A DNA stretch of 64,000 nucleotides, from contig NZ_SNZE01000002.1 in assembly GCF_004363775.1 (NCBI RefSeq), positions 1-64,000 of the forward strand, given 5' to 3'. The stretch is from Hydromonas duriensis (lineage in GTDB: Bacteria; Pseudomonadota; Gammaproteobacteria; Burkholderiales; Burkholderiaceae). Position numbers and translations under genes: made by a program. Below, in pieces: positions 2,075 to 9,813 of this stretch. The notes beneath the pieces were generated by a model. That model made no database searches, was not told where the DNA came from, and saw only the letters and a list, made by a program, of their open reading frames with translations. Within the stretch, counting starts at the first letter, position 1; the number at the start of each line of letters is the position of its first letter.

Positions 2075-3562
2075 TTACATCAAAATAATGTCGTATTGCT
2101 CTTGAAAGAACATATTTTGTGTTTGTAGAGAAATAGGCTTGGCAATTTGACTCGAGACGGCTGCCAAATGAGGTGCAACCTCATCGAGTAGCATGTCAAC
2201 CACATCTGGATGAGCGACCACTCGGAATGCCGTGGCATTGAATTGACAGGCCTCTCGGCGAATTTCGCGCAAGATTTCATAGCATATTGTGCGAGTGGTT
2301 TTTATGACGCCTCGACCAGAACACATCGGACATGGTTCGCACAACAATTGCGCTAGAGATTCTCTGGTGCGTTTACGCGTAACCTCAATTAAACCCAATG
2401 GAGAAAATGGATATACGGCTGTGCGTGTTCGGTCTCGAGCAAATTCTTTTCGCAAAGTGTCCATGACGCTTTCGGCGTGTGTCGGATTACTCATGTCTAT
2501 AAAGTCTAGAATAATCATACCGCCTAGGTTACGCAAGCGCAGTTGGTGCACTATTTCGCGGGCCGCTTCCAGATTGGTTTTGAGAATGGTGTCGGCAAAG
2601 TTTCGCCCTGACACATAAGAACCAGTATTGACATCAATAGTGGTCATGGCTTCCGTGGCTTCAATCACTAAATATCCACCAGACTTTAAGTCAACCCGCA
2701 GTTGCAAGGCGAGATTGATTTCTTCTTCCACTTTATAGGCGTCAAACAATGGTCGTTCAATCGGAGCCAACATGAGTTTGCCCGTCACTGAGGGCGTGTA
2801 TTGTTCAGCGAACTCTTGTAATTCAGCTAAGGTTTGCGCGTCATCGGTGACCACCGATGCGGTATCTGTTGTGACCATGTCCCTTAAAACACGTTGCGCC
2901 AAACTCAAATCTTTATGAATTAAGTAAGGTGCGGGGTGTTTTTGCGCCAGTTGTTGAATATTTTTCCATGCGCAGTTTAAGTAGTTGATGTCGTTTTGCC
3001 ACTCGTCAATCGGTGAGTCGCATGCGGCCGTTCGGATGATGTACCCACCTTGCGCATTGTTCTTATTTGTACCCAATAAATCAATCAAGCGGTTTTTCAA
3101 AGCCCAACGTTCTTCGTCATCTTCCACTTTTTGAGTGACGCCAATGCCCTGTTCTTTGGGTAGGTGCACCAAGAGCCGCCCAGCAATGCTGATTTTAGTT
3201 GAAAGCCGTGCGCCTTTTGTACCGATGGGGTCTTTGATGACTTGCACGAGTACTGTTTGACCATCAAATAAAATGGTTTCAATCGGCGGCAATGTATTCC
3301 CAGTGGAAACCTGACTGGCAGATGGACTGTGCGCGGCAACAACCATGTCCGCCACATGCAAAAACGCGGTACGTTCTAAACCAATTTCGATAAACGCTGA
3401 TTGCATCCCAGGTAAAACACGGACAACTTTACCCAAGTAAATATTGCCAACCAAACCAAGATTGCTTTGTCGCTCAACATAAACTTCTTCTACACGGCCA
3501 TCTTCAAGAATCGCAACGCGGGTTTCAGCACTATTGGTGTTAATAAGAATGTCTTGTTTCAT
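2075..3562 (-). CDS. rng: Ribonuclease G
   Basis: RNase G is a cytoplasmic endoribonuclease of the RNase E/G family that trims 16S rRNA 5' ends and starts mRNA decay. The protein starts MKQDILINTNSAETRVA, matching the family N-terminus. The S1-like RNA-binding region follows (VGNIYLGKVVRVLPGMQSAFIEIG). The DNase I-like catalytic part contains TTIDVNTGSYV and ILDFIDM (metal-binding Asp residues), and the Zn-link motif CEPCPMCSGRG lies near the end. Length from this ATG is 495 residues, usual for Rng and lacking the long RNase E scaffold tail. A GTG 33 bp upstream is in frame but adds residues the family does not have. It follows nrtR on the same strand after 77 bp. Confidence 0.95.
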   Translation of the reverse strand: MKQDILINTNSAETRVAILEDGRVEEVYVERQSNLGLVGNIYLGKVVRVLPGMQSAFIEIGLERTAFLHVADMVVAAHSPSASQVSTGNTLPPIETILFDGQTVLVQVIKDPIGTKGARLSTKISIAGRLLVHLPKEQGIGVTQKVEDDEERWALKNRLIDLLGTNKNNAQGGYIIRTAACDSPIDEWQNDINYLNCAWKNIQQLAQKHPAPYLIHKDLSLAQRVLRDMVTTDTASVVTDDAQTLAELQEFAEQYTPSVTGKLMLAPIERPLFDAYKVEEEINLALQLRVDLKSGGYLVIEATEAMTTIDVNTGSYVSGRNFADTILKTNLEAAREIVHQLRLRNLGGMIILDFIDMSNPTHAESVMDTLRKEFARDRTRTAVYPFSPLGLIEVTRKRTRESLAQLLCEPCPMCSGRGVIKTTRTICYEILREIRREACQFNATAFRVVAHPDVVDMLLDEVAPHLAAVSSQIAKPISLQTQNMFFQEQYDIILM

Positions 3563-3639
3563 GGGCAGCTTTAATATGTTTAATGTGTGAAGCACTTTTA
3601 ACGGCTTGAATATGTTTTGTGAATTGCGTGGCTTTAGTG

Positions 3640-4371
3640 TTATAACGCCCTTGGAAACTCGAAGTTTTCTGCCATATCGCCAACTCGATAAAGTTGAGCA
3701 TCTCGTTTACCACTTCGTTTATAGCATTCGGTGGGTTGTAAAACCCCCGCATCCAGCACTCGGCGACGAAAAGATTTTTTATCTAACTCATGCCCCAAAA
3801 TAACTTCAAAAATACTTTGCAATTCTGTGAGCGTAAATAATTCAGGCATTAACCCAATGGGCAAGGCTGTGTATCGCGTCTTACTTTTTAACCTTGCGAT
3901 GGCCTTTAGCAATAATTGGCTATGGTCAAAAGCCAATTGCAATTGAGTTGCCTCGCCAATATCCAGCCACTGCACTTCTGCTTTTGCACCATTTGCTTGA
4001 TTTATCATGATATCTGAATAATCAATCAATGCAAAATACAAGACCGTCAATGACCAGCCTCTTGGGTCTCGGTGCACATCTCCGACAGTTTGCACCTGCT
4101 CAAGATAGGGTGAGCGTATGCCTGTTTTTTCAAAGAGTTTTCGGTGCGCAGTATCATCCAAGGTCTTGTCCTGATTGACATCGATGAAACCGCCAGGCAA
4201 AGCCCACTGCCCAAAGCTCGGATGTTCGTTGCGCCGAGTGAGTAAAACATGCAGCTTGTGTTGAATAATGGCAAAAATCACCATATCCACACAAGCCAAC
4301 GGGATGTCGTAATCATGAATATTGTATTGACTTAAAAATTCAGCTTCACTTTTTAGCACTTCATTTGTCAT
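3640..4371 (-). CDS. nrtR: NrtR-type regulator (inactive Nudix domain plus winged helix)
   Basis: NrtR proteins bind ADP-ribose through a Nudix domain that has lost hydrolase activity, and repress NAD-salvage genes. Here the Nudix fold occupies residues ~20-150 (DMVIFAIIQHKLHVLLTRR..., WALPGGFID). Its signature is degraded: the RE-x2-EE-x-G core reads RKLFEKTG, so catalytic Glu positions are Lys. This supports a sensor rather than an enzyme. A winged-helix C-terminus (LTELQSIFEVILGHELDKKSFRRR) follows. The ATG was chosen because GGAG lies 6 nt upstream; a TTG 21 bp earlier is less likely. It is downstream of nadV and the Prs-like gene in one operon, a setting known for NrtR. Confidence 0.88.
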   Translation of the reverse strand: MTNEVLKSEAEFLSQYNIHDYDIPLACVDMVIFAIIQHKLHVLLTRRNEHPSFGQWALPGGFIDVNQDKTLDDTAHRKLFEKTGIRSPYLEQVQTVGDVHRDPRGWSLTVLYFALIDYSDIMINQANGAKAEVQWLDIGEATQLQLAFDHSQLLLKAIARLKSKTRYTALPIGLMPELFTLTELQSIFEVILGHELDKKSFRRRVLDAGVLQPTECYKRSGKRDAQLYRVGDMAENFEFPRAL

Positions 4372-4421
4372 TACGACTCCGCATTCAATCAAAGCAAATC
4401 ATGGTTGGTTTGCCTAATCAC

Positions 4422-5912
4422 TTAGACTGACAACAATGTGCGAATCTCGTCTAAACTGACTTCTTTAACCAAGCGACCATTTTCAAAAACAACGTCTAAA
4501 GCACCTTGTTTTTCTTGTTCAGCTGTTTGTTGGTCGTGCAGTTCAAATCCGTTCTGATTCGCTTCGACACGCAGCAAGCCTTTTGCCGATTTTTTAGTGC
4601 CACTGTCCGTGATGGGGTCTTTAAATAGCTCTCGCCCAACACCTTTAACTTGCCCCCATGTGGCTTTCATAGCGAAGCCAAAACTGTCTCGGGTGTTGTA
4701 TTGGTAAGTAAAACTGCCTATGCCAAAAACCAAGTTGCTTGAAGCATAGCCCTTTGCTTTCAGACCTGCCAAAATGGCTTGCGCTCTGGACAAAGTAATT
4801 GAATCGCCATAAATTAAACCCACCCTTTCATGCAATTGTCTAAACCCTTTATCGGTCATTGTGCCGCCAAAGACTTCCCACAAACATTCAACCGCACCTT
4901 TATAAGCAGGACTGCCTTCTGGTGCTTCAGGGTCGCCACAAATAATTTTTACAGGGTCGCCACTGTCGGGACGAAACACTACTTTAGCCAAGCCCAAGGC
5001 ATTGGGTTGACGATTTAAAATCGTCTGTTTGAGCTCTTTAGCAAAAACGGTGAGCACTTGCCAAAAATCCCACGTATCGGAGACGATGCTCACTATGCCT
5101 GACGGGTATAAATCTGTAACCAAACGGCGGAATGTGCTTAACTCATCATCCTGCGTACCCATGCACATGACACTATGCTCGGTTGCGGGGACGGAGACAC
5201 CGACCACACCCGTGGCGTTGTAGTATTGTTCTGCATAATCAATCGCAGAAACGGCATCTGTGCCTATAAAGCTGGTTAAATGCCCCACTGCTGATTGAGT
5301 CGAATCATAAATACCACTCATGCCACGACAACTAAAATCATGGCCTTGCAATGACACAAAATCTAAAGGTGCACCCGTATCTTGCGCGTATTGCGTGAGT
5401 AAACGTTTATACTCGTAGGCAATGCTCGCGGTCGTGCATGACTTCCACAACTCCGCGCTCATCACGGTCTCAATGTAATTGGTCAACCAAAAAAAATCAG
5501 GATGCGTGTTCACAAGCGTGAGCATCGGCACTTTAACATTCACCCGACTGCCCTCAGGCAACGCTTTGATTTTTAAAGGCAAATAGCCCAAATCATGCAA
5601 TGCTGCAATGTGGTCTACAGGCACAGCCCCCTCGCCCAATGAAGCATCCATACGCCGTTTGTAAGCGGCAAGCACTTTATCTTTAGGCTGTTTGAAAAAC
5701 TCATCATTCCAAGTTTCAATTAAAAAATGCTTAATAAACCCCTGTAAACCAAAGAAAACAACCCGACCATCAAAATCGTCAAGCACAGGAGCCAAACGCG
5801 CTGAACGTGGGGTTAAATTTGAGTACACGTATTCTGTACCTTCTGGATACTGGCGGCGATGATCAGCTTTATAAAAATCAATGGCGTGAAGAGGATTGAT
5901 GCGAATACCCAT
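4422..5912 (-). CDS. nadV: Nicotinamide phosphoribosyltransferase (NadV/NAMPT family)
   Basis: NadV joins nicotinamide to PRPP, giving NMN for NAD+ salvage. At 496 residues it matches the eukaryotic NAMPT length. Conserved landmarks are DFYKADHRRQYPEGTEYVYSN at the N-terminus, LQGHDFSCRGMSG then FIGTDA (Asp ~219, contacts nicotinamide in the family), VPATEHSV with the phosphorylatable catalytic His ~246, and FRPDSGDP (phosphoribose contact). The C-terminus VFENGRLVKEVSLDEIR also parallels NAMPT. It starts 9 bp after the Prs-like gene and precedes nrtR, so substrate supply and regulation are co-transcribed. A NadV-like protein paired with a Prs-like protein could instead act on ADP-ribose pyrophosphate (see findings). 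The family is certain; the exact substrate is less so. Confidence 0.92.
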   Translation of the reverse strand: MGIRINPLHAIDFYKADHRRQYPEGTEYVYSNLTPRSARLAPVLDDFDGRVVFFGLQGFIKHFLIETWNDEFFKQPKDKVLAAYKRRMDASLGEGAVPVDHIAALHDLGYLPLKIKALPEGSRVNVKVPMLTLVNTHPDFFWLTNYIETVMSAELWKSCTTASIAYEYKRLLTQYAQDTGAPLDFVSLQGHDFSCRGMSGIYDSTQSAVGHLTSFIGTDAVSAIDYAEQYYNATGVVGVSVPATEHSVMCMGTQDDELSTFRRLVTDLYPSGIVSIVSDTWDFWQVLTVFAKELKQTILNRQPNALGLAKVVFRPDSGDPVKIICGDPEAPEGSPAYKGAVECLWEVFGGTMTDKGFRQLHERVGLIYGDSITLSRAQAILAGLKAKGYASSNLVFGIGSFTYQYNTRDSFGFAMKATWGQVKGVGRELFKDPITDSGTKKSAKGLLRVEANQNGFELHDQQTAEQEKQGALDVVFENGRLVKEVSLDEIRTLLSV

Positions 5913-5921
5913 TTACAGCTC

Positions 5922-6785
5922 CTATTTTTTAAAATTAATATTCTTAAAATTAATAACGGTCAATTTAATTGAAGATTGACTCATGTTATGTGAAAAACTA
6001 TCTGTCGTGTAAATGCGGTCAATCAAGCCTTCAAATACAGATAAACCTTTACTAAAAATACCGTGAGTGACGTATAAAACAATGTGCGCACAGCCGATTT
6101 TACGTAAGGCTTGCGCAATGCCGATAAACGTCATGCCGCCATCACAAATATCATCCGTAATCACCGCCGTTTTACCTGATAAATCATCAGTTAACACGGT
6201 TGTTTCTAAAATTTTCCCACTCACGGGGTCTCGCTTTTTTTCACAAAAAACAATTTGCTTTAAGTCAAATGCTCTAGCAATCGCCTCGCTGCGTGGTTTT
6301 GCCCCTTTATCTGGACAAATTAAAACGGTATTTGTATCTTGTAAAACGTCGACCAATTCAGGGCTATTACCAATTATTTGCCAAGACTCAATGTTAATTG
6401 CATCCAGTAACTGGCTACCAACACTGCTGTGACAATCCCAGACCGTTACACTTTTTTTGGGGCGAAGTCGCAACATTTCCGCCATTAATTGCATTGAAAA
6501 AGCCTGCCCTACCGCGCACACTCTATCCTGTCTGGCGTATGGTAAATAAGGAATTTCAAGGTTGATGGCAATGTCTGGATTGTGCTGAAATAAAGCATTT
6601 TCAAGCAAGAGATAGTCCATCAAATCATTTGATGAGCGAATATTCGCTTGAATATTCACAGTTTGAATGGGCTGTTCGGGCAAAAGCCCAATTTGTACAT
6701 GACGCTCACCGCCCGAAAATTCTGAATACTGAACGTCTAAAATGCGGTTATTTTCAGACCATGACACTTTTATGCTTGAGTTCAT
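5922..6785 (-). CDS. Divergent ribose-phosphate pyrophosphokinase-like protein
   Basis: This is a 287-residue Prs homologue, shorter than the usual ~315. Canonical Prs makes PRPP from ribose 5-phosphate and ATP. Visible motifs are the ATP-contact YARQDR (85-88 core), a flexible-loop-like KKRD (183-186) and the phosphoribose-binding loop VITDDICDGGMTF (208-220), where ordinary Prs has a DDxxDTxGT-type loop. The T-A/G-G-T portion is therefore altered to DGGMT. It is first in the operon with nadV and nrtR, so it probably supplies NadV with its pyrophosphorylated co-substrate. It is unlikely to be the cell's main Prs. It may prefer ADP-ribose over ribose 5-phosphate; sequence alone does not settle this. 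Confidence 0.8.
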   Translation of the reverse strand: MNSSIKVSWSENNRILDVQYSEFSGGERHVQIGLLPEQPIQTVNIQANIRSSNDLMDYLLLENALFQHNPDIAINLEIPYLPYARQDRVCAVGQAFSMQLMAEMLRLRPKKSVTVWDCHSSVGSQLLDAINIESWQIIGNSPELVDVLQDTNTVLICPDKGAKPRSEAIARAFDLKQIVFCEKKRDPVSGKILETTVLTDDLSGKTAVITDDICDGGMTFIGIAQALRKIGCAHIVLYVTHGIFSKGLSVFEGLIDRIYTTDSFSHNMSQSSIKLTVINFKNINFKK

Positions 6786-6816
6786 ATCATTTCAACTTTT
6801 GCTGTTAATTATTGGA

Positions 6817-6834
6817 ATGTCGATATATTGGCAT
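6817..6834. promoter_or_regulatory. Candidate NrtR operator
   Basis: ATGTCGATATATTGGCAT is an imperfect 18-bp palindrome: 14 of 18 positions match its reverse complement, with a GATATAT-like core. It lies 32 bp upstream of the Prs-like start codon, just downstream of a minus-strand TTGACT. An operator here would overlap the -10 region, fitting repression. I have not matched it to a curated NrtR motif. Confidence 0.45.
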
Positions 6835-6848
6835 AAAGCCACTATATA

Positions 6849-6854
6849 AGTCAA
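6849..6854 (-). promoter_or_regulatory. -35 element of the prs-like/nadV/nrtR operon
   Basis: TTGACT on the minus strand (AGTCAA as written on the plus strand). A -10 at 18 bp would be CAATAT, inside the candidate operator; it is a weak match, so the promoter is tentative. Confidence 0.35.
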
Positions 6855-6992
6855 GATTAAAATTTAAAAACTTTTCTGATGCATTGCAGACTAAACAACA
6901 AGGTCTTATTTAGTTTTAACAAAACACCAAGAATCTCAAGCCCCGCAAAAACAAACGCAAGCATATACCTCGTACACGCTGGCACTTTATTT

Positions 6993-7037: not shown

Positions 7038-7640
7038 ATGGCAAGCGCACTCAATTTTTATTTTGATTTTTCGTCACCTTATGGTTATTTTGCCAGCACA
7101 CGCATCAATGAATTGGCACAAAAATATGGTCGTCGCGTCGACTGGCACCCATTTGCGGGGGCTCCTCTTAAACCATTAAACAGCGGAACCTCTTTAGTAC
7201 ATAACCCTGCCAAAAAAGCCTACACCGAGAGAGACTACGTGCGAACGGCCGCTTTTCATGCCATTCCATTTAAACTGCCCACTTTATTTCCCCTTGATAC
7301 ACGTTACGCCTCGCGTGCGACCATGTGGGTAGAAAGCACACAAGGCGAGGACAAAGGCATTGAATTTGCCCAAGCCATTTTTAAAGCCTATTATGTGAAT
7401 GACCTGAATATTGGCGACCCAGCCGTCATCGTCACCATTGGCGAATCCATCGGATTAAACACTGAACAACTGACAGCTGGCATGCATAACTCATTTACCA
7501 AAGAACAGTTGCGTGCTGAAATTGATTTGGCCTCGGCCAAAGGCGTCTTTGGTTCACCTTTTGTTTTACTTGATGGTGAGCCCTTTTGGGGATTCGACCG
7601 CTTCGACCAACTCGAAGCTGCATTAAAAGCCAAAGCATAA
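7038..7640 (+). CDS. 2-hydroxychromene-2-carboxylate isomerase family protein (DsbA-like)
   Basis: This is a 200-residue member of the kappa-class GST/DsbA-fold family. It starts MASALNFYFDFSSPYGYFAS, the signature N-terminus in which the first Ser (SSPYGY) takes the place of the thioredoxin Cys. The central helical insertion follows (residues ~35-150), and the thioredoxin-fold end contains KGVFGSPFVLLDGEPFWGFDRF with the cis-Pro. Known members isomerise chromene carboxylates in a glutathione-dependent manner during naphthalene breakdown, but most genomic copies have unknown substrates. Here it sits 7 bp before nth, with no aromatic-degradation genes nearby. AAAGG precedes the ATG. Confidence 0.88.
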   Translation: MASALNFYFDFSSPYGYFASTRINELAQKYGRRVDWHPFAGAPLKPLNSGTSLVHNPAKKAYTERDYVRTAAFHAIPFKLPTLFPLDTRYASRATMWVESTQGEDKGIEFAQAIFKAYYVNDLNIGDPAVIVTIGESIGLNTEQLTAGMHNSFTKEQLRAEIDLASAKGVFGSPFVLLDGEPFWGFDRFDQLEAALKAKA

Positions 7641-7647
7641 ACCGTCT

Positions 7648-8277
7648 ATGAAACCAGCAGCGCGACAAGAGATATTCACTCGCTTTCGGGATTTAAATCC
7701 ACATCCCACGACAGAACTCGTCTATAAAAGCCCTTTTGAATTGCTCATTGCCGTGGTTTTATCGGCACAAGCCACAGACGTCGGTGTGAATAAAGCCACA
7801 GCAAAGCTTTTTCCGATTGCCAATACACCCGAAACTATTTTGGCTCTTGGGGAAGAAGGCTTAATCCCTTTTATCAACACCATTGGGCTGTTTCGCAGCA
7901 AAGCCAAACATGTCATCGGCTTGTGCGCCATGCTGATTAACAAGCATAACGGCCAAGTACCCGACGACCGCGCATCACTCGAAGCCCTCCCTGGCGTCGG
8001 TCGAAAAACAGCGAATGTCATTCTCAATACAGTTTTTAGACAACCCACCATGGCGGTGGATACGCACATTTTTCGCCTTGGCAATCGAACGGGACTTGCA
8101 ACGGGTAAAACCGTACTGGACGTTGAAAAAAAACTCCTGAAAAATATTCCCAAAGAATTTTTACTCGATGCGCATCACTGGTTGATTTTGCACGGGCGGT
8201 ACGTGTGCCAAGCACGTAAGCCCAAATGCGGCGAGTGCATCATTCACGACTTATGTGATTACAAAGCAAAATCTTAA
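7648..8277 (+). CDS. nth: Endonuclease III
   Basis: Nth is a DNA glycosylase/AP lyase that removes oxidised pyrimidines in base-excision repair. At 209 residues it is of normal length. The helix-hairpin-helix reads LEALPGVGRKTANVIL, with the catalytic Lys in GRKTAN. The catalytic Asp is in VDTHIFRLGNR. The [4Fe-4S] cluster Cys pattern C-x6-C-x2-C-x5-C is complete at the C-terminus (CQARKPKCGECIIHDLC). All required residues are present. It is probably translated with the preceding isomerase gene, whose stop codon is 7 bp upstream. Confidence 0.97.
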   Translation: MKPAARQEIFTRFRDLNPHPTTELVYKSPFELLIAVVLSAQATDVGVNKATAKLFPIANTPETILALGEEGLIPFINTIGLFRSKAKHVIGLCAMLINKHNGQVPDDRASLEALPGVGRKTANVILNTVFRQPTMAVDTHIFRLGNRTGLATGKTVLDVEKKLLKNIPKEFLLDAHHWLILHGRYVCQARKPKCGECIIHDLCDYKAKS

Positions 8278-8351
8278 TTTTTGCAGCATTAACATCCAAA
8301 TAAGCCCCTGCTTTTTCACGCCGCCACATGGTGTTCTTGCCCCATGCCCGC

Positions 8352-8357
8352 TATAAT
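8352..8357 (+). promoter_or_regulatory. -10 element upstream of gltX
   Basis: A perfect TATAAT lies 34 bp before the gltX ATG at 8392. The -35 region at 17 bp (TGGTGT) is a poor match. It also lies inside an in-frame upstream extension of gltX, which argues that the extension is not translated. Confidence 0.4.
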
Positions 8358-8391
8358 GTCGCCTTACCGACGTTTTTTTGTAAAGGCATTC

Positions 8392-9813
8392 ATGAGCACC
8401 TCTACCACTCCCATCCGCACCCGCTTTGCTCCTAGCCCCACTGGTGCTTTGCACATTGGCGGCGCACGCACTGCACTATTCAGCTGGGCTTTGGCCAAAC
8501 ATTTTGGCGGCACATTTGTACTGCGCATTGAAGACACCGATGTTGAACGCTCAACACCTGAAAATGTAGCTGAAATTCTTAATGCTATGAAATGGCTGAA
8601 TTTGGCGCATGACGACGGCCCTTATTATCAAATGCAACGCATGGATCGTTATCGCGAAGTCATCGCACACATGCTAAAGGATGGTTCAGCATACTATTGC
8701 TACACCTCAAAAGAAGAGCTTGAAGCCATGCGCGAAGCACAAAAATTGCGTGGCGAACGTGAAAAATACGACGGCACTTGGCGACCTGAAACAGGAAAAC
8801 AATTGCCTACGCCACCAGCGGGCGTACAACCTGTTGTTCGATTTAAAAATCCATTAACAGGCAAAACTTCTTGGACGGATGTCGTCAAAGGCGAAATTTC
8901 GTTCAACAATGAAGAACTAGACGACCTCATCATCGCCCGTCCCGATGGCACGCCTACTTATAATTTTTGTGTTGTTGTTGATGACTGGGACATGGGCATC
9001 ACCCACGTCATTCGAGGCGACGACCATGTTAACAATACGCCGAAACAAATCAATATTTTAAAAGCCTTGGGCGCGCCCCTACCCTTTTATGGGCATATCC
9101 CAATGATTCTTGCTCCAGACGGCTCTAAATTATCCAAACGCAAAAATGCAACTGCGGTCATGGATTACGAGCGCATGGGATATTTGCCAGAAGCCTTGTG
9201 TAATTATTTAGCCCGTCTTGGTTGGGGACATGGCGATGATGAAATTTTTTCACGTGAACAATTCATCGAATGGTTCAGCGTTGAACACCTGTCTTCCTCA
9301 TCATCTCAATGGGATCCGAAAAAACTCAACTGGATTAACAACCACTATATCAACCAAAAAGACAACGCTGAGTTGACCGACTTAATCGCTCAACGCCTTA
9401 CCAAACGCTTAGAAAGTCAGGCAGGTACTGTGCCTTTGGACTCTTACTCCTTGGCAGCCATCGTTGAACTATATAAATCACGTTGCGACACTTTAGAGGA
9501 CGTCACGTCAGCCGCCGAAGGTTTTTATCTCAAATACACGCCCAATGCAGTGCTCATCGCTGAACACGTTAACGATGCGAATCGCCCAGCTTTACTTGAC
9601 TTCGCTAACAAACTAAAAGAAATTGACTGGAGCAAAGACACCATCAATGCCCTTATCAAGAGCACTTTGGCTGAGCACAATTTAAAAATGCCCGCGTTCG
9701 GCGTTCCTTTGCGCGCCATCCTTCTGGGGCAAACACAAAGCCCTTCATTGGATGCGATTGTGCATCTCTTAGGTCGCTCCGAGTGCGTTTCTAGAATTCT
9801 GAGCGTTATTTAG
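8392..9813 (+). CDS. gltX: Glutamyl-tRNA synthetase
   Basis: GltX charges tRNA-Glu and is a class I aminoacyl-tRNA synthetase. From this ATG the protein has 473 residues. The HIGH-type motif is HIGG in [22 protein letters not shown] at the N-terminus, and the KMSKS-type motif is SKLSKRKNA. The anticodon-binding helical domain fills the C-terminal third. The open frame extends 16 codons upstream, but the family starts just before [13 protein letters not shown] lies 6 nt before this ATG, and a TATAAT lies in the upstream part, so the later start was chosen. Confidence 0.97.

Follow-up and report, generated by a model that had tools for sequence, protein, structure and literature searches.

Does an operon composed of a Prs-like gene, nadV and nrtR serve the classical salvage of nicotinamide through nicotinamide mononucleotide (NMN), or could it rebuild nicotinamide adenine dinucleotide (NAD+) directly from ADP-ribose? 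The question is raised by a locus of Hydromonas duriensis located within positions 1 to 64,000 of contig NZ_SNZE01000002.1 (assembly GCF_004363775.1), a stretch of 64,000 nucleotides that was analysed as a whole and is referred to below as the window. A preliminary description of this DNA had reported the three open reading frames (ORFs), all of which we recovered where it had placed them, and had inferred from them the two-enzyme ADP-ribose chemistry of phages, carried out by the enzymes Adps and Namat of the NARP1 system. As a prediction from sequence, this chemistry is supported by the Adps clade to which the Prs-like protein belongs, by the presence of a separate prs and by the Namat clamp of NadV.

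We consider it very probable that the locus is a chromosomal NARP1-type operon under the control of NrtR, which would make NAD+ from ADP-ribose and nicotinamide. In the mechanism that we propose, NrtR bound to tandem operators in front of the operon would hold it off. Cleavage of NAD+ to nicotinamide and ADP-ribose would yield the effector, ADP-ribose, which would bind NrtR and release it. The Adps-like enzyme would convert ADP-ribose and ATP into ADP-ribose pyrophosphate, from which the Namat-like NadV, using nicotinamide, would form NAD+ directly, with no NMN being made.

The enzymes of the operon

Phylogenetic analysis of 67 proteins placed 16 housekeeping Prs proteins on one side of a branch with an SH-aLRT support of 100, away from the window Prs-like protein, which grouped with 38 bacterial and 12 phage Adps-type proteins including Adps of phage SPbetaL1. 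The preliminary description had asked whether the protein would cluster with phage Adps or with the enzymes making phosphoribosyl pyrophosphate (PRPP), and the tree clearly favours the former. It had also held that the lack of any other prs would speak against the ADP-ribose chemistry; a separate ordinary prs is present in the source genome, encoding a full housekeeping Prs according to TIGR01251. In profile searches the Prs-like protein scored 255.6 bits against the phage family phrog_619 versus 131.1 bits against TIGR01251, a score that passes the broad TIGR01251 cut-off of 113 bits. An Adps profile, of which the window protein is itself a row, scored it at 341 bits versus 127.7 bits for the housekeeping Prs of the same genome.

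The altered loop DDICDGGMTF, which we take to be the loop holding the ribose phosphate, is indeed found at residues 211-220, as one case of a pattern that runs through the clade. DDICDGGxTF is the commonest Adps-type form among the rows shown, occurring in 8 of the 12 Adps-type rows printed, and the window protein does not fit the DD(M/I)(I/V)DT(G/A)GT loop seen in all 4 housekeeping Prs rows printed. A second loop of the window protein, K-K-RD-P-V-SG, fits the Adps pattern K-x-R-(D/N)-x-x-(T/S)-G. The residues conserved in both clades (R85, D87, R88, D117, H119, K183, R185, D211 and D212), presumably catalytic, are all kept. The predicted model adopts a PRPP-synthetase fold, with a predicted local distance difference test (pLDDT) score of 90.8 and a template modelling score (TM-score) of about 0.8 to 6nfe. 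Based on its clade, the Prs-like protein is predicted to be an Adps and to catalyse the first of the two reactions proposed above.

As revealed by crystal structures and mutants, an adenine clamp distinguishes Namat from NAMPT; it comprises a helix, GSX..X..X.TRD, whose positions 3 and 7 are aromatic, and a loop residue, e.g., R40 (PMC12774641). The window NadV carries this clamp: its helix, GSFTYQYNTRD, is identical letter for letter to that of SPbetaL1 Namat (the SCH motif), R39 stands in place of R40 (the SCL stacking residue), and 19 of the 20 NAD+-contact residues named in the same paper are identical, the exception being A362, replaced by S371. Positions R39 and F401 of the window protein correspond to those changed in the published Namat double mutant R40A/F392G. 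The NAMPT-type helix (GG[AG]LLQ and similar), which has no adenine-binding residues, is not of the type found here. The protein scores 547 bits against Namat 9w5x, 214 bits against human NAMPT and 200 bits against 7yqo, a structure that we take to be the NadV of Xcc. TM-scores of its predicted model are 0.93 to Namat 9w5x, 0.90 to Haemophilus ducreyi NadV and 0.83-0.87 to human NAMPT, the model being of low confidence in the clamp stretch at residues 404-408. When the clamp columns were masked, the NadV tree still grouped the window protein with Adps-linked and phage NARP1 members, apart from 13 NAMPT-type proteins and from 3 phage NadV proteins lacking Adps, 2 of which adjoin annotated adenylyltransferase genes. 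The full-length NAMPT-type NadV of the preliminary description stands as an ORF of 496 aa, albeit with Namat as its closer sequence match, and the phylogeny against phage Namat proposed there puts it within the Namat clade. NadV is predicted by its sequence to be a Namat, which would catalyse the second reaction. It shares the fold and catalytic core of H. ducreyi NadV (9ke8) and of the NAMPT-type NadV proteins (human, Xcc), but these have no aromatic clamp residues and no Adps partner was found for them.

Family annotation cannot separate the two NadV types because NCBIfam NF006629 (PRK09198.1), an "equivalog" named nicotinate phosphoribosyltransferase, spans NAMPT-type and Namat-type proteins alike. 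For this reason, NAD metabolism is probably mis-annotated in genomes ranging from Klebsiella and Citrobacter to Bacteroidota, Nocardia and cyanobacteria.

The enzymes themselves would be new members of an established system, NARP1. The locus shares with the SPbetaL1 system, besides the clamp helix and the NAD+ contacts, the Adps-Namat gene order and a kinase of the Adps clade; it differs in being chromosomal, among apparent housekeeping genes, and in having nrtR as a third gene and a conserved operator. For a chromosomal pair from Paenibacillus foliorum, synthesis of NAD+ out of ADP-ribose and nicotinamide was demonstrated in vitro, and the pair neutralises SPARSA toxicity in Escherichia coli (PMC12774641). 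The window pair is likewise host-encoded, but it is proteobacterial and NrtR-linked, whereas PMC12774641 mentions no transcriptional regulator of the pair. According to the same paper, which refers to Tesson 2024 for surveys, the part that chromosomal NARP1 plays in physiology needs investigation. What appears to be new here is the NrtR-linked operon and, in another phylum, the ADP-ribose-releasing neighbours of the pair.

Co-inheritance of the adenine clamp and Adps

To define the clamp type across relatives, we used an aromatic residue at helix position 3, which is found in 70 of the 80 loci retrieved as relatives with the window NadV. Adps was detected in the fetched stretch of 68 of these 70 clamp-type loci versus none of the 10 others; this and all further association counts are uncorrected for shared ancestry. 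One of the two apparent misses (L037) has its Adps just past the fetched stretch. The other (L025) is a metagenome-assembled fragment of 6.4 kb, and no Adps was found in its genome by profile search. The same contrast was seen in a Pseudomonadota set with wide flanks (5/5 clamp loci versus 0/23 others) and in a blind Bacteroidota set of 23 loci (L223-L245) collected by family search alone, of which 14 are of the clamp type and 9 are not. In the latter, Adps accompanies all 14 clamp loci, 11 times within a stretch of at most 15 kb and 3 times just outside, and none of the 9 others; the flanks of these 9 were not extended likewise and are covered by the genome-wide Adps-profile search. Two follow-up stretches of loci from the first set (L246, L247) stand outside the blind set, and three weak loci under the cut-off (L219-L221) were left out. 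Clamp-type loci were seen from Klebsiella and Citrobacter to Bacteroidota, Nocardia and cyanobacteria, and the clamp residues are kept across phyla.

At the genome level, with 62 genomes searched, the Adps profile detected an Adps in 23 of 24 clamp genomes versus none of 38 others. Scores were 263-341 bits in the 23 genomes, 6 of which supplied rows of the profile, and 153 bits for the next best. A TIGR01251 search of 16 genomes returned one Prs of at least 348 bits in each; an Adps-type copy (67-159 bits) was present in all 11 genomes that encode a clamp-type NadV and was not detected in the other 5, and a further match of 88 and 78 bits was obtained in G003 and G043, respectively. Among 16 phage loci, selected by hand and not at random from two lists (60 and 15 rows of 1,936 records), Adps accompanies 12 of 13 clamp-type nadV genes versus none of 3 others. 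One of the 16, Prevotella phage Lak-B5 (L189), encodes a NadV with F at position 3 and V at position 7, with no Adps in reach.

The NadV branch of the Pasteurellaceae provides a natural negative control. This branch belongs to the Namat-like half of the tree and displays Q..R or R..S instead of the aromatic pair, and Adps is absent from the fetched stretch of the 8 Pasteurellaceae loci of the H. ducreyi-type branch. NadV of H. ducreyi itself, which reads GAQTYQRNTRD, was crystallised with NMN (9ke8).

These associations also bear on the possibility that the pair uses PRPP and ADP-ribose pyrophosphate to about the same extent and that the operon is a general scavenger of nicotinamide, a view that overlaps with the one favoured here. 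Namat does take both donors in vitro, although with a strong preference for ADP-ribose pyrophosphate (PMC12774641). Co-inheritance with Adps, and the occurrence of other clamp residues where Adps is absent, suggest that the ADP-ribose route is the one under selection, and we regard an evenly dual pair as unlikely.

Several loci depart from the common arrangement. Adps-linked NadV proteins of L088, L090, L094 and L122-L125 have unusual clamps with an aromatic residue at position 3 and not at position 7 (GSWGFLKNASRD, GSYANLQNNTRD, GSYSLNMLSRD and GSYTYNM(L/V)SRD), and their donor preference may differ. Chitinophaga rupis (G017 C16, 1007535 and 1051513; L229, L247) encodes a NAMPT-type and a Namat-type NadV 44 kb apart. 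In the Enterobacterales (L031-L033, L035, L036, L038-L061 and L065, from Klebsiella, Citrobacter, Kosakonia, Enterobacter and others), clamp-type nadV and Adps are found with a divergent NrtR-like gene, and all 8 genomes examined among them also have NadR. No near match to the Citrobacter pair of L036 was found in E. coli genomes.

NrtR and its operator

The window NrtR exhibits the usual NrtR architecture, with matches to PF00293 NUDIX (54.1 bits) and PF21906 NrtR_WHD (73.6 bits), and scores 178 bits against 3gz5, presumably a Shewanella NrtR. An active Nudix box has the consensus RExxEExG; the box is degenerate in the window NrtR (RKLFEKTG) and in 3gz5 (RKLAEKTA), in agreement with the loss of Nudix catalytic residues reported in the preliminary description. 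In the 80-locus set, an NrtR of at least 100 bits is encoded at 55 of the 70 clamp loci versus none of the 10 others.

The 18-bp palindrome that had been noted in front of the operon is present at 6817-6834 but is imperfect, 14 of its 18 positions matching. Dinucleotide shuffling of the 200 bp upstream did as well in 193 of 500 cases; the palindrome is therefore at chance level when taken alone and was rejected as evidence in itself. A palindromic motif, GcCAtTAtATATaTAaTGgC, nevertheless precedes the Adps-like gene in the window and in 22 relatives. Fitted to these 23 rows, some of which are close relatives (L016 was left out), it reaches a summed score of 304 versus 199.5 +/- 5.2 (highest 208) in 20 dinucleotide-shuffled sets. 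The window contains two copies in tandem (Table 1), as does Formosimonas limnophila. Judging from its position and linkage, the conserved motif would be the NrtR site, and NrtR homology together with this operator suggests that the operon would be induced by ADP-ribose. The region holds 11 promoter-like sites versus 7.9 +/- 2.9 expected, which is not significant alone.

Table 1. Coordinates of the genes, diagnostic codons and putative regulatory sites of the operon in the window.
Feature	Position	Strand	Basis
nrtR, Nudix-derived predicted repressor, 250 aa	3640..4392	-	domain matches
nadV, Namat-like gene, 496 aa	4422..5912	-	ORF, structure-database matches, tree
Codons of GSFTYQYNTRD, adenine-selectivity helix	4686..4718	-	equals SPbetaL1 Namat residues 390-400; motif per PMC12774641
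Codon of R39, counterpart of SPbetaL1 Namat clamp arginine R40	5796..5798	-	alignment
Adps-like gene (family name ribose-phosphate pyrophosphokinase), 287 aa	5922..6785	-	ORF, profiles, tree, model
Codons of DDICDGGMTF (residues 211-220), presumed ribose-phosphate loop	6126..6155	-	sequence, clade comparison
Putative operator copy 1, GTCGATATATTGGC, core of palindrome 6817-6834	6819..6832		motif shared with related genes
Putative operator copy 2, GCCACTATATAAGTC, best-scoring window site of the motif	6838..6852		fitted motif
Weak promoter-like site TTTAAA-16-TATAGT, overlapping operator copy 2	6841..6868	-	9/12 consensus matches

The three genes are arranged head-to-tail, and an operon is the natural reading because only 9 bp separate the Prs-like gene from nadV. 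Translation of nrtR could start at the TTG at 4392 or, more likely, at the ATG at 4371.

The NrtR studies by Rodionov in 2008 and Huang in 2009 reportedly described a degenerate Nudix box, ADP-ribose as the effector, control of NAD salvage and a prs-nadV-nrtR operon, which was said to serve PRPP/NMN salvage. Compared with the NrtR regulon of Shewanella and others, the window pair is read here as a module for ADP-ribose recycling. In Pseudomonas aeruginosa, activity of the NADase toxin NatT relieves the repression of salvage genes by NrtR (PMC11535050); this is the behaviour proposed for the window operon. A search of titles and abstract openings, with most subscription papers outside its reach, found no publication linking NrtR with NARP1, and an earlier mention is possible.

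Fate of NMN, supply of ADP-ribose and genomic setting

Classical NAMPT salvage would be expected to come with a dedicated NMN adenylyltransferase, NadM or NadR. Neither NadM nor the NadR adenylyltransferase was found by profile searches of the source genome (2.43 Mb, 99.8% complete), and this further weakens the case for classical NMN salvage. The only match, 22 bits over 69 NadR positions, is probably another nucleotidyltransferase. We extended the survey to 45 genomes, namely that of the window and 44 of those bearing the 80 loci. NadR with its adenylyltransferase part was detected in 6 of 7 non-clamp genomes (5 over the cut-off, one at 260.6 bits) versus 9 of 38 clamp genomes, the latter being eight Enterobacterales and Geminocystis; two of these 15 NadR genomes, Abiotrophia and Geminocystis, are below the cut-off. 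NadM exceeded its cut-off in none of the 45. This distribution fits a pathway that would skip NMN. It falls short of proof because many of the genomes are draft or metagenome-assembled, and because the source genome encodes the two NMN-related proteins discussed below.

Enzymes that release ADP-ribose or its phosphate from modified nucleic acid, from protein or from RNA ends are described in PMC11833690 and PMC9503650. Genes for NADAR, KptA/Tpt1, macrodomain, microbial PARG, ADP-ribosylglycohydrolase and DUF4291 proteins were confirmed with Pfam in the clamp loci L012, L027 and L037, the proteins of which were then used to score the remaining loci by tblastn. In Bacteroidota, at least one of NADAR, KptA, macrodomain/PARG and ADP-ribosylglycohydrolase is encoded near 12 of 14 clamp-type nadV genes versus 2 of 9 others, and the association is significant in this phylum only; the counts were not significant in the 80-locus set (6/70 clamp versus 0/10) or in the wide Pseudomonadota set (1/5 clamp versus 0/23). 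No ADP-ribose-releasing gene is evident beside the window operon.

Many Bacteroidota loci among L223-L247 and their follow-up stretches (e.g., L246 1-16001, L249 and L250) combine a Namat-type NadV and Adps with NADAR, KptA, macrodomain, PARG, ADP-ribosylglycohydrolase and DUF4291 genes; by their gene content they look like islands for the release and recycling of ADP-ribose. They resemble the ADP-ribosylglycohydrolase-centred host systems with Nudix/WYL regulators described in PMC9503650, in that many have an NrtR-type regulator along with ARG, Macro and NADAR genes. Section 3.8 of that paper, however, mentions neither NadV nor a Prs-like gene, and the fate it proposes for ADP-ribose involves phosphatases and not the rebuilding of NAD+.

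Several points weigh against the ADP-ribose route in the window. Adps of SPbetaL1, the nearest assayed Adps in our set, is just 26% identical to the window Prs-like protein and its loop reads DDLSSFGGTF, which differs from that of the window; consequently, Adps identity does not depend on the exact loop, and the assignment rests on the clade. The source genome encodes PncC, an NMN deamidase that could pass NMN on, and a ribosylnicotinamide-kinase-like domain that points to some NMN traffic. Searches of this genome for NADAR and macrodomain genes, which did not extend to NADases, recovered neither, so that no supplier of ADP-ribose was found here. The window NrtR scores 333.3 bits against NF050029 (positions 3-238 of 245), below the cut-off of 400. 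No convincing operator was seen at L004, L010, L015, L017 and L021, all of which score below 6 bits. An NrtR-like gene of at least 100 bits is also found at 6 of the 9 NAMPT-type Bacteroidota loci, and NrtR linkage alone was rejected as a marker of NARP1 on this account. Shared ancestry, for which the counts are uncorrected, adds to these points.

Some of them are also what classical salvage would build on. In that scheme the Prs-like protein would make PRPP and NadV would make NMN, which would reach NAD+ through PncC with NadD/NadE or through a promiscuous NadD. PncC and the distance to the assayed Adps would agree with it, as would the NCBIfam and Pfam names of the proteins, ribose-phosphate diphosphokinase and nicotinate phosphoribosyltransferase, and the NMN-forming activity that Namat retains (PMC12774641). 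We nevertheless rejected it as the leading explanation and hold it to be quite improbable: the Prs belongs to the Adps clade and has Adps-type loops, the adenine clamp is exact, a full housekeeping Prs is already available in the genome, the 38 genomes with solely non-clamp NadV lack Adps, and NadM and the NadR adenylyltransferase were not found in the source genome.

The operon could instead be a remnant of phage counter-defence, i.e., a NARP1 pair of phage origin that persists by chance and does nothing for the host, which would be compatible with the ADP-ribose chemistry. Phages carry the Adps-Namat pair, and its distribution around the window is patchy: NadV was found in 1 of 5 other congeneric genomes searched (G456), and none of the window neighbours up to about 16 kb turned up next to the F. 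limnophila operon over the 12-13 kb compared. The flanks of the window operon, however, look like chromosomal housekeeping genes as named by eye (rng-like at 2075-3595, nth- and gltX-like at 7648-9813), the ORFs are intact, the clamp is conserved across phyla, and an NrtR of at least 100 bits is found in none of the 13 stretches of clamp-type phage loci versus 55 of the 70 bacterial ones. A functionless remnant is, in our view, very improbable. The Adps-clade tree, in which bacterial and phage members are interleaved and several phage rows are long-branched, would be compatible with transfer either way between phages and bacteria because of this interleaving.

With a regulated host operon for ADP-ribose recycling as the favoured explanation, the bacteria that carry it probably turn ADP-ribose straight back into NAD+ upon destruction of the cofactor. 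More broadly, we think it likely that such salvage is widespread, NrtR sensing ADP-ribose and switching on Adps and Namat, and that in Bacteroidota it would constitute the NAD+-rebuilding end of a NADAR/KptA/macrodomain/PARG/ADP-ribosylglycohydrolase island. If true, phage NARP1 would be a borrowed host pathway and many prs-nadV "salvage" genes would need renaming. The NrtR gene in the operon and the ADP-ribose-releasing neighbours elsewhere point to a specific and cheap-to-test role for chromosomal NARP1, inducible recycling of ADP-ribose, which would also give a reason for the response of NrtR to ADP-ribose.

Some minor observations were made along the way. A ribosylnicotinamide-kinase-like domain stands alone at 72059-72541 of G000 C10 (NadR positions 160-321, without the adenylyltransferase) and is also found in F. 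limnophila and in Chitinophagaceae-type genomes. The F. limnophila operon (L003) contains, at 7506-9512 between nadV and nrtR, an ORF of 668 aa with pentapeptide-like repeats recognised by eye, which the window does not have. A record named "Acinetobacter phage MD-2021a" (CAKLQF020000015.1, L083) has Prs-like, nadV and nrtR genes like those of the window; we rejected it as an operon-bearing phage and take it for a mislabelled bacterial contig because the genes annotated on either side are for bacterial transport and metabolism. Finally, a plasmid collection includes two Acinetobacter baumannii records of about 4 Mb that also encode a 79% identical NadV.

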